64,000 bases of DNA from a virus, in the IMG/VR virus record IMGVR_UViG_3300020448_000002, positions 62,001-126,000 of that record. The stretch is one strand, 5' to 3'. Shown one piece after another: positions 47,701-60,337 of this stretch. Within the stretch, counting starts at the first letter, position 1; each line of letters opens with the position of its first letter. The position numbers and the translations under genes were made by a program. Below the pieces are notes generated by a model that worked only from the letters and a program-made list of their open reading frames with translations, did no database searches and was not told the origin of the DNA.

Positions 47701-49953
47701 ATGGCAGCGAATCAATCATCGCCAGGTGTAGTAGTACAAGAGAGAGATCTGACAACTGTCTCTACAGTATCAACTGCGAATATTGGTGTAATGGCAGCCC
47801 CCTTTGAGTTGGGACCTGTAGAAGAAATCATCGAGGTCTCAGGTGAGAGACAACTTGCAGAAGTGTTTGGTGAACCAAATGATAACAACTATGAGTATTG
47901 GTTTACAGCAGCACAGTATCTTGCATATGGTGGAACATTAAAAACAATCCGCGTATCATCTGCATCATTGAAAAATGCTGTTGATACAGGAACTGCTCCA
48001 TTAATTAAGAATTTACAATCGTACGAAACATCTTACGAAGAAGCAAATAACAACTGGACTTGGGCAGCTAGAACTGCAGGTTCTAAAGGTAACTCAATCG
48101 GTATATTTGTAACTGACTCAGGTGCTGATCAAATCGCTGTTATACCTGCTCCTGGTTCTGGTAACGATCCTGAGTTTGTCGCTGATGCTGCTGTAACTGC
48201 ATCTTCTGGTGCTGCAGGTAAAGTATTCAAATACTCTATTGTCTTAACAGTAACAAGCGTTGTCGGAGATTTTACACCTGGTACAACAACTACTATTAGT
48301 ATTTCTGGTTCTAACGAAACAGTTAATGTATTAGCATGGGATCCAACAAATCTTAAATTAGAGATTGGATTACCTGGTGGTGGAGTTACTGGTATCATCG
48401 CTGATGGTCAAACAATAACTCAAGGATCAAATACTTGCGATATCGCTACAGGTGGTATTGAAAGAAAATTATATATCGCATCTGACAAAGGCACTGTTGC
48501 TTTTGCAGCTGCTGATAGCATCCAAGATACAAACTCTACAGCATTCTCTATTACTTCTGTAAGAAATGAGTATGCAGAGCGTGAGTATCTACCTGGTGTA
48601 AAGTGGATTAACGTGGCTCCACGTCCTGAGACTTCACAGTTTGCAGTTGCAAATGGTGGATTCAGAGATGAACTACACGTTCTTGTCATTGATATAGACG
48701 GTAAAATCACAGGTACTGTTGGTGCATTACTTGAAAGATTTGTCGGTTTATCAAAGGCATCAGATGCTAAGACTTCCGTTGGAGAAACTAACTACTATCC
48801 AGAAGTTCTTAAGCAAAAGTCTCAATATGTTTATTGGGGTGAGCACGAGGATACAACATTCTCTGCTACTGGAACTCCTTCTGATGGTGTATTTGGTGGA
48901 AGTGCTCAGAACAAACAGTTTAACTTACTACGTTCTGCAGCTGGTTCAACAGATTATCCTGATGGAAGAACAACAATAGGTTCTAAGAACAACTCAACAT
49001 ATTACTACAGACTTGCCAGTGGTGCAGATTATGCAACATCTGGTGGTAACTATACAGTTTCAAATACTGATATCGCTACTGCATATCAATTAGTAGAAGA
49101 TCCTGAGTCACAGACAATCGACTTTATTCTCGCTGGTCCTTCTGGTGCTGATGACGCAAGTGCAATCGCTAAGATTACTTCACTAACAAATATCGTAGAA
49201 GAGCGTAGAGACTGTATGTTATTCGTATCACCTAGACGTGCAAACGTTGTTGGTGTAAGTAGTGGAACAACTGTTACTTCAAATATAATTGACTTCTTCA
49301 AGCAATTACCAAGTTCTTCTTACATGGTATTTGATTCTGGATACAAATATATCTACGATAAGTATAATGATGTTTATAGATACATTCCTTGTAACGGTGA
49401 CGTAGCAGGTCTATGTTTACAAGCAACAGAAACTGCTGAAGCATGGTTCTCACCTGCAGGTTTCCAACGTGGTGTTCTAAGAAATGCTATTAAACTAGCA
49501 TATACACCAACTAAAACTCAGCGTGATAACTTATACGCAAACAGAGTTAACCCAATCGTATCCTTCCCTGGTCAGGGTGTGGTACTATTCGGTGATAAGA
49601 CTGCTCTTGGATTTGCAAGTGCATTTGATAGAATTAACATTCGTCGCTTGTTCTTGGTTGTTGAGAGAGTTATCTCTGGTGCTGCTAAAGCACAACTCTT
49701 TGAACAGAACGATGAGTCACAAAGATCACTCTTTGTTAATATCATCGAACCTTATCTAAGGGATGTTCAAGGACGTAGAGGTGTTACAGACTTTATTGTT
49801 AAGTGTGATTCTTCTAACAATACTCCAGAGGCAGTTGACCGTGGAGAATTTTATGCGGAAGTATACTTGAAGCCAACACGCACAATTAACTACATTACAC
49901 TAACATTCGTTGCAACACGGACAGGTGTAAGTTTCGGTGAGGTAGCAAGCTAG
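47701..49953 (+). CDS. gp18: tail sheath protein gp18
   Basis: The contractile sheath subunit. Residues 1-90 (S-P-G-V-V-V-Q-E-R-D-L, N-I-G-V-M-A-A-P-F-E-L-G-P-V, Y-E-Y-W-F-T-A-A-Q-Y-L-A-Y-G-G) and the C-terminal domain (W-F-S-P-A-G-F-Q-R-G, F-G-D-K-T-A-L, I-N-I-R-R-L-F-L, F-I-V-K-C-D) are characteristic. It has 750 residues against 659 in T4. About residues 160-260 are an added beta module (G-D-F-T-P-G-T, V-L-A-W-D-P-T-N-L-K-L-E-I, G-Q-T-I-T-Q-G) shared with other structural proteins here. It has its own late promoter upstream and terminator downstream, fitting high-level expression. Confidence 0.95.
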   Translation: MAANQSSPGVVVQERDLTTVSTVSTANIGVMAAPFELGPVEEIIEVSGERQLAEVFGEPNDNNYEYWFTAAQYLAYGGTLKTIRVSSASLKNAVDTGTAPLIKNLQSYETSYEEANNNWTWAARTAGSKGNSIGIFVTDSGADQIAVIPAPGSGNDPEFVADAAVTASSGAAGKVFKYSIVLTVTSVVGDFTPGTTTTISISGSNETVNVLAWDPTNLKLEIGLPGGGVTGIIADGQTITQGSNTCDIATGGIERKLYIASDKGTVAFAAADSIQDTNSTAFSITSVRNEYAEREYLPGVKWINVAPRPETSQFAVANGGFRDELHVLVIDIDGKITGTVGALLERFVGLSKASDAKTSVGETNYYPEVLKQKSQYVYWGEHEDTTFSATGTPSDGVFGGSAQNKQFNLLRSAAGSTDYPDGRTTIGSKNNSTYYYRLASGADYATSGGNYTVSNTDIATAYQLVEDPESQTIDFILAGPSGADDASAIAKITSLTNIVEERRDCMLFVSPRRANVVGVSSGTTVTSNIIDFFKQLPSSSYMVFDSGYKYIYDKYNDVYRYIPCNGDVAGLCLQATETAEAWFSPAGFQRGVLRNAIKLAYTPTKTQRDNLYANRVNPIVSFPGQGVVLFGDKTALGFASAFDRINIRRLFLVVERVISGAAKAQLFEQNDESQRSLFVNIIEPYLRDVQGRRGVTDFIVKCDSSNNTPEAVDRGEFYAEVYLKPTRTINYITLTFVATRTGVSFGEVAS

Positions 49954-57851: not shown

Positions 57852-59312
57852 ATGGATCTTACGATCAAAAAGAAGAATGAAGTATATTTAAAAGTTGACG
57901 CAGAACCATCCACCCATCAAGAACTAGCAGACTTTTTTACTTTCGATGTCGATAATGCAAAGTATATGCAGAAAAATCGAAGGTATAAAGGATGGGATGG
58001 AAAAGTAAGATTATATTCTCCTGCTACTGGAGAGATTTATTGTGGTTTATATTCTTATTTAATTGACTGGGCAAAGAAGAAGGGTTATACATACGAAATT
58101 CAGAAGCACGATCACTTTGGTCTTCCACTTGAGGAGAACGATCTAATAACTCCTGAGGCTGTGACAGGGTTTGTGAAGGCACTTTCTCTTCCTGTAAAAG
58201 TACGCGATTACCAACTGAAAGCAATATACGAATGCCTGAGATACAACAGACGAGTCCTATTGTCGCCAACTGCCAGTGGGAAATCCTTAATGATCTATTC
58301 ATTGGTTAGGTTTCATGTAAATGTTAATAGACAGGTTCTAATTGTAGTTCCTACGACTTCTCTTGTAGAACAAATGTATAAAGACTTTGAAGAGTATGGA
58401 TGGAAAGCATCTGCATACTGTCATAAGATATACGGTGGAGAAGAAAAATATACAGAACACCCAGTAACTATTACTACTTGGCAATCCATATACAAAGAAC
58501 CACGTAAATGGTTTGAACGCTATGATGTTATTATAGGCGATGAAGCACATTTATTCAAGGCTAAATCACTAACAAGATTGATGTCTAAGTTACATGACTG
58601 TAAGTATAGGTATGGATTTACTGGAACACTGGATGGAACTAATGTAAATCAACTAGTATTAGAAGGTGTATTTGGTAGATGTTCTAAGGTAACTAAGACA
58701 GAAAGTCTAATGCAGAAAGGACATCTTGCTAAATTAAAGATCAATATTATATTATTAAAGCATAAAGAAAAAATATTTGAAGGGTATCAGGAAGAAATAG
58801 AGTACCTGACCGAACATGAAAACCGTAATAAATTTATCCGAAACTTAGCATCAGACCTAAAAGGTAATACTTTAGTGCTGTTTAATTACGTAGAAAAACA
58901 TGGTGTCCCTCTATACGAGATGATAAATACTTATACAGATAAGTCTGTATATTTGGTTCATGGTGGAGTTGAGACAGAAGATAGGGAAGACATTCGTTTC
59001 CTTGTTGAGAGATCTGTTGATGGAGGATGTATTATAGTAGCATCTCTAGGAACGTTCTCTACAGGTATCAACATTAAAAATCTACATAATGTTATTTTTG
59101 CATCGCCCTCCAAATCAAGAATACGCAACCTACAATCTATAGGACGTGTATTAAGGAAAGGAGAAAACAAGTCCAAAGCTACTTTATATGATATAGCTGA
59201 CGATATATCTACAGATACAGGAAAGAATTATACTCTCCGACATTTGTATGAAAGGATAAAAATTTATAAAGAAGAAAATTTTAAGTATGAAATTGTAGAA
59301 GTAACCCTCTAA
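57852..59312 (+). CDS. uvsW: UvsW RNA-DNA and DNA helicase
   Basis: UvsW unwinds R-loops and branched DNA and shifts replication from origin to recombination-dependent mode. 486 residues, near T4 (503). The N-terminal domain has H-Q-E-L-A-D-F-F-T-F and Y-K-G-W-D-G-K-V-R-L. The superfamily 2 helicase core follows: P-T-A-S-G-K-S near 140, D-E-A-H near 230, F-T-G-T-L near 255, F-S-T-G-I-N-I-K-N-L near 400 and Q-S-I-G-R-V-L-R-K-G near 425. All motifs are intact. Confidence 0.96.
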   Translation: MDLTIKKKNEVYLKVDAEPSTHQELADFFTFDVDNAKYMQKNRRYKGWDGKVRLYSPATGEIYCGLYSYLIDWAKKKGYTYEIQKHDHFGLPLEENDLITPEAVTGFVKALSLPVKVRDYQLKAIYECLRYNRRVLLSPTASGKSLMIYSLVRFHVNVNRQVLIVVPTTSLVEQMYKDFEEYGWKASAYCHKIYGGEEKYTEHPVTITTWQSIYKEPRKWFERYDVIIGDEAHLFKAKSLTRLMSKLHDCKYRYGFTGTLDGTNVNQLVLEGVFGRCSKVTKTESLMQKGHLAKLKINIILLKHKEKIFEGYQEEIEYLTEHENRNKFIRNLASDLKGNTLVLFNYVEKHGVPLYEMINTYTDKSVYLVHGGVETEDREDIRFLVERSVDGGCIIVASLGTFSTGINIKNLHNVIFASPSKSRIRNLQSIGRVLRKGENKSKATLYDIADDISTDTGKNYTLRHLYERIKIYKEENFKYEIVEVTL

Positions 59313-59316
59313 TCTA

Positions 59317-59784
59317 ATGGCAATTAACTACGCTAAACATGAAGAAGAATTCTATGGAGTTTTCAAACTCATAAGTGGAGAAGAGGTGCTTGGTCGATCA
59401 GTGATAACAGAAGATCAAGGTGAGTCATTAGTTTTTATTCAAGATCCAGTTGTAGTTCAACTTATTGATAAACCAGTTGGAGATCAGAAAGTATCTGCAA
59501 CAGGAGAGTACAAAGTAGCACGTGCAATAGGGTTTACCAAATGGCAACAACTATCAGATGAAGATTTTTATATTATAAGAGAGAAAGATATAGTTACTGT
59601 TTCTTCTATGAACAAAGAAGTTATATTCATGTATGAGGCATTCGTCCACGGTGCCGACGGGTTGGGTGAAAAGAAATTTAGAATGAAAACTCCCCTCAAC
59701 AAAACAAAAGGTTTTGTAGGGAAGATAGATGAAGCAAGAAAAAGGTTTGAAAAACTATTTAAAGAAGATCCAAAATCCCCTTGA
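59317..59784 (+). CDS. unknown protein with Sm/SH3-like N-terminal barrel, 155 aa
   Basis: Residues about 10-45 read Y-G-V-F-K-L-I-S-G-E-E-V-L-G-R-S, a strand-turn-strand pattern typical of small Sm- or SH3-like barrels, followed by Q-D-P-V-V-V-Q-L and W-Q-Q-L-S-D-E-D strands. The C-terminal 50 residues are basic and helical. It starts 4 nt after uvsW and is the last gene before the gp55 promoter. The barrel call is pattern-based; RNA or protein binding is a guess from the fold. Confidence 0.6.
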   Translation: MAINYAKHEEEFYGVFKLISGEEVLGRSVITEDQGESLVFIQDPVVVQLIDKPVGDQKVSATGEYKVARAIGFTKWQQLSDEDFYIIREKDIVTVSSMNKEVIFMYEAFVHGADGLGEKKFRMKTPLNKTKGFVGKIDEARKRFEKLFKEDPKSP

Positions 59785-59811
59785 ACCCTTACATGGTTAT
59801 TGTAGTGGCAT

Positions 59812-59840
59812 TTGACACCTTTGTCAAGCCCTGCTATAAT
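59812..59840 (+). promoter_or_regulatory. consensus sigma-70 promoter for gp55 with inverted repeat over -35
   Basis: TTGACA at 59812-59817, 17-nt spacer, TATAAT at 59835-59840: a perfect match to the bacterial housekeeping promoter. TTGACA CCTT TGTCAA (59812-59827) is a perfect 6-bp inverted repeat covering the -35 box and could be an operator. A GTCGGAGGAC ribosome site precedes the gp55 ATG. Confidence 0.85.
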
Positions 59841-59863
59841 AAAACTATTGTCGGAGGACAAAT

Positions 59864-60337
59864 ATGAGGAAGGCGAACTCGAAAAAGAAGCCGCACTACG
59901 TTGATAATGCCGAATTTTTAAACCACATTATCAAATATAAAAGAAAAGTCAAGGAAGCGGAGGAATCTGGCAAAGCCAAACCCCGCGTGAACAATTATAT
60001 AGGGAGTTGCTTTCTTAAAATCGCCACTCACCTGTCATACAGACCAAATTTTATCAACTACATGTATAAAGATGACATGGTATGTGATGGAATAGAGAAC
60101 TGTATTCAATACATTGATAACTTTGACCCAGAGAAGTCAAGAAATCCTTTTGCGTACTTCACTCAAATAGTATACTACGCTTTCCTTAGAAGAATTGCAA
60201 AAGAGAAACGTCAAATGGATATCAAAGATAAAATTTTAGAAAAATCAGGCTACGATCATGTATTTTCAGTTGACGGAGAAGTAAATCCCGACTATAATCA
60301 GATCAAAAGCCGTGTTGAGATGAACACTAAACGATGA
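59864..60337 (+). CDS. gp55: late-transcription sigma factor gp55
   Basis: gp55 binds host RNA polymerase core and directs it to late promoters of the ATAAATA type. 157 residues (T4: 185). Conserved parts are K-K-P-H-Y-V-D-N, I-G-x-C-F-L-K-I-A-T-H-L-S, the sigma region 2-like Y-I-D-N-F-D-P-E-K-S-R-N-P-F-A-Y-F-T-Q-I-V and A-F-L-R-R-I-A-K-E-K. It is the first gene after a host-type promoter, fitting early or middle expression, and would act on the late promoter motifs mapped throughout this window. It overlaps gp47 by 4 nt (ATGA). Confidence 0.94.
   Translation: MRKANSKKKPHYVDNAEFLNHIIKYKRKVKEAEESGKAKPRVNNYIGSCFLKIATHLSYRPNFINYMYKDDMVCDGIENCIQYIDNFDPEKSRNPFAYFTQIVYYAFLRRIAKEKRQMDIKDKILEKSGYDHVFSVDGEVNPDYNQIKSRVEMNTKR

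Follow-up and report, generated by a model that had tools for sequence, protein, structure and literature searches.

What purpose could a perfect inverted repeat serve when it lies across the -35 box of the promoter ahead of gp55, the gene encoding the late sigma factor? The question arises in a 64-kb stretch of DNA (64,000 nucleotides, here called the window) of a virus that infects marine cyanobacteria, from an IMG/VR record 126,269 bases long. The genes stand in the cyanomyovirus order also seen in annotated relatives: uvsW-like helicase, Sm-like gene, gp55, gp47, gp46. The original prediction took the repeat to be of a shape suited to a repressor or activator dimer, which would make the promoter a plausible switch for the timing of late genes. 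The comparisons below point elsewhere: the perfect promoter is real but half of a larger element, a divergent pair of promoters whose leftward arm is likely matched to the phage primase.

The promoter had been singled out as the only perfect TTGACA-17-TATAAT in the window, and a scan of both strands bears this out (59812-59840). With the spacer free to vary from 15 to 19 nucleotides, there is still one exact match on both strands of the 64 kb, where 0.17 would be expected. At least one such match was held by 14 of 100 shuffled controls, so the forward promoter, taken alone, is not beyond chance. The inverted repeat is also as described: TTGACACCTTTGTCAA, at 59812-59827, with six bases in each half. 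It is the only TTGACA-N4-TGTCAA without mismatch in the window and in the entire record, and palindromes of this form with up to three mismatches are not enriched in the window (49 vs 61.6 expected). The exact 16-mer occurs in 79 IMG/VR stretches, most of them probably matches by chance, since only 12 of the 79 also contain GAACCCTTACA.

The second half of the palindrome, read leftward, is the -35 box of TTGACA-17-TACAAT (59827 to 59799). On its two strands together the window has just two copies of TTGACA-17-TAnnnT, one at 59812(+) and one at 59827(-), and these are the two halves of the palindrome. Both promoters sit in the 79 bases that separate the Sm-like gene from gp55 (Table 1). Transcription would be expected to start near 59847 from the forward promoter and near 59792 from the leftward one.

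Table 1. Genes and predicted control elements around gp55 (positions in the window)
Feature	Position	Strand	Details
uvsW-like helicase	57852..59312	+	phrog_16, UvsW_N PF21241
Sm-like gene	59317..59784	+	PF16243 E 7.2e-39; phrog_471; 'methylamine utilization' in relatives' annotation
Easily melted stretch, candidate unwinding element	59722..59782	-	70% A+T; 3' of leftward start, within the 3' end of the upstream gene
Block AACCATGTAAGGGTTC	59783..59798	-	immediately after leftward -10, about -6 to +10; candidate site of the primase zinc-binding domain
Leftward promoter	59799..59827	-	-35 TTGACA 59827-59822, 17-nt spacer, -10 TACAAT 59804-59799
Palindrome TTGACA-CCTT-TGTCAA, where the -35 boxes of the divergent promoters overlap	59812..59827	.	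exact in 48/76 relatives
Forward gp55 promoter	59812..59840	+	-35 TTGACA 59812-59817, 17-nt spacer, -10 TATAAT 59835-59840
Likely gp55 ribosome binding site	59853..59857	+	GGAGG
gp55, late sigma factor	59864..60337	+	phrog_234, E 2.4e-71

Loci of gp55 were gathered from IMG/VR (80) and from named phages (26). Together with the window's own, this gave 107 loci with enough upstream sequence, representing 76 distinct gp55 upstream regions. The leftward promoter is found as an exact TTGACA-17-TAnnnT in 75 of the 76, the sole exception being ACG-2014f (TTGCCA-17-TATAAT). The forward promoter, with no more than one mismatch in each box, is found in 68. Both arms have -35 and -10 boxes 16 to 18 nucleotides apart that are kept in relatives, as is characteristic of sigma70-type promoters, and the presence of a divergent sigma70 promoter pair at gp55 is, on these alignments, close to certain. 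The palindrome itself is exact in 48 regions. In the remaining 28 the leftward promoter stays, and examples of loci that have lost the first half of the palindrome and kept the second are S-PM2, S-RIM44, ACG-2014d, P-SSM2, L096, L102, and L136. For the four named phages, and for a number of environmental loci, the forward promoter sits farther downstream or uses other boxes.

The second half persists without the first because it is the -35 box of the leftward promoter, and since the palindrome is lost in relatives while the leftward promoter stays, the palindrome is the overlap of two promoters. It is not kept beyond what the promoters need. A palindrome-bearing promoter had been predicted ahead of gp55: the sigma70 promoter stands, but the operator does not. 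A dimer operator timing gp55 would have in its favor a perfect 6+6 inverted repeat on the -35 box that many relatives retain, but each half is a -35 box in its own right, and the loss of the palindrome from 28 of 76 regions with retention of its second half removes the operator as the main reading and makes it extremely improbable. Judged by its conservation, the palindrome is a pair of overlapping -35 boxes, not an operator. If there is a timing switch here, it is possible that it works through two promoters on one -35 region, together with the primase-linked block described below, rather than through a dimer operator.

The leftward arm carries more than its two boxes. Directly abutting its -10 at gp55 is a block, AACCATGTAAGGGTTC. 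A search for CTTGACA-N17-TANNATAACNNTGTNNNGGTT, with up to three mismatches allowed, found block promoters in 17 of 19 records and in 10 of 10 further phages (27/29 in all), one to four in each genome; the control, the same pattern read backwards, gave a single match in all. The pattern is absent from P-SSM4 and P-HM2 (2/29), which nevertheless have TTGACA-17-TACACT at gp55. The most constant copy is that at gp55. A genome may have as many as three more, which stand ahead of a phrog_718 gene, CP12/CpeT genes, a DUF7294 gene, phrog_507, or a helicase. At gp55 there is no conserved gene behind the leftward promoter, whose predicted RNA would run antisense to the Sm-like gene, and a search of Rfam gave no match.

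The surroundings of individual sites deserve mention. In S-CAM8 (L161 5365-6047) and in the S-H25 record (48637-49568), a block promoter is followed by phrog_718 and phrog_707 genes, and in S-H25 and its relatives a 57-aa MazE/AbrB-like DNA-binding protein (phrog_661; PF04014, E 4.1e-6) is encoded behind the phrog_718 block promoter. Elsewhere in S-H25 (L224, about 13.4-14.1 kb) and in S-CAM8 (L211), a block promoter stands ahead of a CP12-domain gene (PF02672, shown on the S-H25 protein) and then a CpeT-like gene, a host-metabolism module with the same type of promoter as the leftward arm at gp55. S-SKS1 (L226, about 169.8 kb) has a second block promoter ahead of a helicase-like ORF of 397 aa. 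In P-SSM7 (L242 1019-1117), a 99-base 'hypothetical protein' has been annotated over the divergent promoter region; it is probably not a gene.

The letters of the block agree more within a genome than between genomes: 0.852 vs 0.734 for the block as a whole (p=5e-5; 21 genomes with at least two sites) and 0.798 vs 0.304 for letters 4-5. The spacers of the same sites show no within-genome agreement (0.342 vs 0.346, p=0.59, over the same 21 genomes). The 21 come from 29 records, of which P-SSM4 and P-HM2 have no site and the window's record, G001, G002, P-SSM7, P-RSM4, and P-SSM2 have a single one. The gp55 site of ACG-2014f was entered by hand from the upstream comparison and is not a match to the pattern. 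Two phages listed under Tefnutvirus, S-H25 (AACAC at three sites) and S-IOM18 (AACC at three sites), differ at every site; P-RSM1 is exceptional in that its two sites differ from one another (AACAC and AACTC). Class does not go with overall similarity: the closest genome to S-H25 (CAC) is S-RIM50 (CCW), and the closest to ACG-2014b (CAC) is ACG-2014g (CCW). Such letters would point to a reader acting in trans.

What might the reader be? The ORFs of 18 genomes (taken in stretches) were compared, and 111 protein families were scored in a two-class test on 14 genomes, split 6/8 between the classes CAC and CCW; the four omitted were S-PM2, S-RIM44, and DSL-LC02 (all three AACTC) and ACG-2014d (AACAA). 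Ranked by identity, the DNA primase comes first (AUC 0.842; next 0.685, median 0.527), with the caution that some unrelated family reaches 0.842 in 22 of 1000 random splits. The protein is gp61-like (phrog_47, E 2.9e-104; T4 primase chain in the PDB, E 8.3e-54). Among families of up to 2500 residues, the primase separates the classes perfectly at 10 columns and near-perfectly at 12; no other family has more than five perfect columns (in a long variable protein) or more than two near-perfect ones, with the caution that 23 of 300 random splits give some family 12 such columns.

All 12 of these columns fall within residues 1-112, the zinc-binding domain, and none within 113-328. That domain alone, in a test that came after the family test and was not chosen blind, gives an AUC of 0.998, and the true split outranks every other among the 3003 possible 6/8 splits, the runner-up reaching 0.781. 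The value is 1.0 for 13 genomes when S-IOM18 is dropped, whose primase, kept elsewhere in the analysis, is a fragment owing to a 20-kb stretch that ends inside the gene. The RNA-polymerase domain of the primase gives 0.61 in the 14 genomes; over all 35 primases compared here, it too tracks class (AUC 0.768 vs 0.819). Class changes 6 times on a core-gene tree (35 families, core families over 1500 residues left out) and 6 times on the tree of the RNA-polymerase domain vs 3 times, the minimum, on the tree of the zinc-binding domain. The two domains appear to have different histories, as if the zinc-binding domain had been exchanged between cyanophages. One type of this domain is matched in 379 cyanophage records.

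Block class and domain type agree in 8 of 9 records outside the discovery set, which are not all independent of it (S-RIM8 shares a genus with S-RIM50, and S-P4 with Syn30). A CAC-type domain goes with AACAC in P-RSM4, the S-TIM4 record, and metaG-MbCM1, and a CCW-type domain goes with AACC in S-RIM8, P-SSM7, P-SSM4, S-P4, and G013. P-RSM4 and S-TIM4 are presumably of the same genus, judging from the genus name. The window's own record has no primase gene, so its own pair of block and primase lies outside the test. Records with AACTC carry further types of domain, one like that of S-PM2 in G023 and another in G022, G025, and G026. In S-BM3 (L527 / W29 92228-92271), the block reads AACCTTG and the primase zinc-binding domain belongs to neither main type. 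S-BM3, with no gp55 block by the search pattern, is the one clear exception to the match. In metaG-MbCM1 (L526 1001-1987), the annotation divides the primase into two separate coding pieces, leaving a gap.

Other candidates for the reader fared less well. The AbrB/MazE-like protein of phrog_661 does not discriminate among its 12 members, as ACG-2014b (CAC) and S-RIM2 (CCW) have the same N-terminal stretch. The CpeT family ranked first in a scan of residual similarity, but it lies directly behind a block promoter and is linked to it. S-H25 and S-IOM18, compared as a pair, are too divergent to single out one gene. The letters of the block follow the zinc-binding domain, as they would in a primase recognition site, and it is likely that the block is matched to the phage primase. 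According to this comparison, the block would be a candidate cognate site of the zinc-binding domain, with which it may be in physical contact.

How might a primase read such a site? The zinc-ribbon domain of T4 gp61 is reported to read 5'-GTT or 5'-GCT in the template, giving pentamers such as ACAUC (PMC10359460). On the strand of the block used as template for transcription the sequence is 5'-..NNGTT-3', on which a primer of the T4 kind would consist of AC and then the letters of the class. The T7 primase is also described as a reader of a pentanucleotide, 5'-(G/T)2GTC-3' with an A/T-rich 3' flank, possibly through the same domain, and in T7 the GGGTC within the A/T cluster is reported to go unused for priming (PMC12839067). 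At the block, it is the promoter's own -10 box that supplies GTT with an A/T-rich 3' flank. Because GTT by itself is much too frequent to signal an origin, one must assume that adjacent letters are read as well. Usage of NNGTT 5-mers in the 18 genomes does not differ by block class. The class-splitting columns adjoin, but do not coincide with, the T4 residues reported to touch DNA, and they extend into the region of helicase contact. With the columns beside the contact residues, direct contact by the primase is something we infer.

A promoter followed by an easily melted stretch is the pattern of promoter-dependent phage origins such as the T7 primary origin or T4 oriE, and it is found here. 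With masked bases skipped in the computation of DNA stability, the 60 bases after the leftward start have a mean percentile of melting ease of 86.2 at 17 gp55 sites, as compared to 80.1 at 19 other block sites and 52.0 at 2465 ORF ends. The gp55 mean is reached by none of 20000 random samples, a figure not corrected for relatedness. The stretch in the window (59722..59782) lies at the 76th percentile of instability within the window. Cumulative GC skew in 18 genomes has no extremum at the gp55 site but has extrema elsewhere; a switch in strand composition is not required of phages with multiple origins. Origin function is the best present explanation of the site, with no support from GC skew. 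The leftward arm may be regarded as a host-sigma70 promoter fused to a primase cognate site, and we lean, by a small step beyond an even chance, toward its being a transcription-activated replication origin.

According to the model, two host-sigma70 promoters diverge and overlap at their -35 boxes, and the rightward promoter would transcribe gp55. Host RNA polymerase at the leftward promoter would open the DNA, the RNA-DNA hybrid would persist with the help of the easily melted stretch immediately beyond, and the primosome (gp41/gp61) would be engaged at the block. The two promoters would presumably compete for polymerase. A bolder version, doubtful but worth stating, is that at one 16-base palindrome the polymerase chooses between a leftward fork start and the rightward late sigma factor, the two being mutually exclusive, and that primase domain and block are exchanged together as lock and key.

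Parts of this arrangement are familiar. Bacteria have overlapping divergent promoters, back-to-back sigma70 pairs with one -35 region in which polymerase holds one promoter at a time; here, however, one arm drives no conserved gene and carries the primase-linked block. The primary origin of T7 includes promoters, and, as at gp55, a strong promoter, an easily melted stretch, and a primase sequence lie close together. It differs in that the promoter is that of the phage polymerase rather than of host sigma70 and in that the primase site lies downstream, whereas the block lies on the start point. The plasmid-encoded primase of IncQ plasmids reads its own dedicated initiation sites, ssiA and ssiB. 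These resemble the block in being dedicated to a primase, but they are single-strand sites in hairpins, without a promoter, and the primase is unrelated. In T4, oriF (uvsY), oriG, and oriE share with the site a promoter, a downstream unwinding element, and the uvsY-uvsW surroundings. As described in the parts of PMC3016281 drawn on here, oriF and oriG are each made up of a promoter and an unwinding element that lies downstream of it, oriE needs an early promoter, UvsW unwinds and removes origin R-loops, and no primase-matched block is mentioned. The promoters of oriF and oriG differ from those at gp55 in being MotA-dependent middle promoters; in the portion of PMC2984593 consulted, cyanomyoviruses are said to lack motA and asiA, and for Syn9 a single theta origin is predicted and early transcription proceeds from host-like promoters.

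If not an origin, what else could the leftward arm be? Perhaps the block is an operator at which the zinc-binding domain of the primase, or the product of a neighboring gene, shuts off early promoters (those of CP12/CpeT, the phrog_718 gene, and phrog_507) along with the leftward promoter at gp55, until relief of the latter frees the gp55 promoter. The position of the block would suit a repressor, several copies precede genes, the letters agree within genomes, and the cognate factor would again be the primase region. But the universal copy at gp55 controls no gene of its own, families other than the primase do not track class (the next AUC being the 0.685 given above), and to our knowledge primases are familiar only as readers of single strands, not as repressors. 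An operator of this kind seems unlikely.

The direction of the leftward promoter suggests another role, in which it would produce an antisense RNA over the Sm-like gene and uvsW, either regulatory or protective of mRNA, with the block as its 5' leader. Antisense transcription is reported in Kyanoviridae (PMC10976474), and CfrI in S-PM2 (PMC2984593). This would leave out of account that the block is common to mRNA promoters elsewhere in the genome, that it follows the primase allele, and that Rfam offers no match, and we consider it distinctly unlikely. One might also dismiss the association of block and primase as accidental, a product of common ancestry or of choosing the top scorer among many families: the two-class test had only 14 genomes and random splits do at times reach the AUC of the whole protein. 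Against this, the split by zinc-binding domain is the unique best of 3003, the changes of class are halved on the tree of that domain, and records outside the discovery set agree, several of them sharing a genus with a discovery genome; accident is very unlikely. The origin remains the favored reading.

No earlier description of a promoter pair with a primase-matched arm was found in the literature searched, which consisted mostly of papers outside subscription. If the reading is correct, T4-like cyanophages would have a sequence-defined candidate for an origin of replication, the zinc-binding domain of the primase would travel from phage to phage in company with its sites, and replication and the late sigma factor would be controlled from the same few dozen bases.
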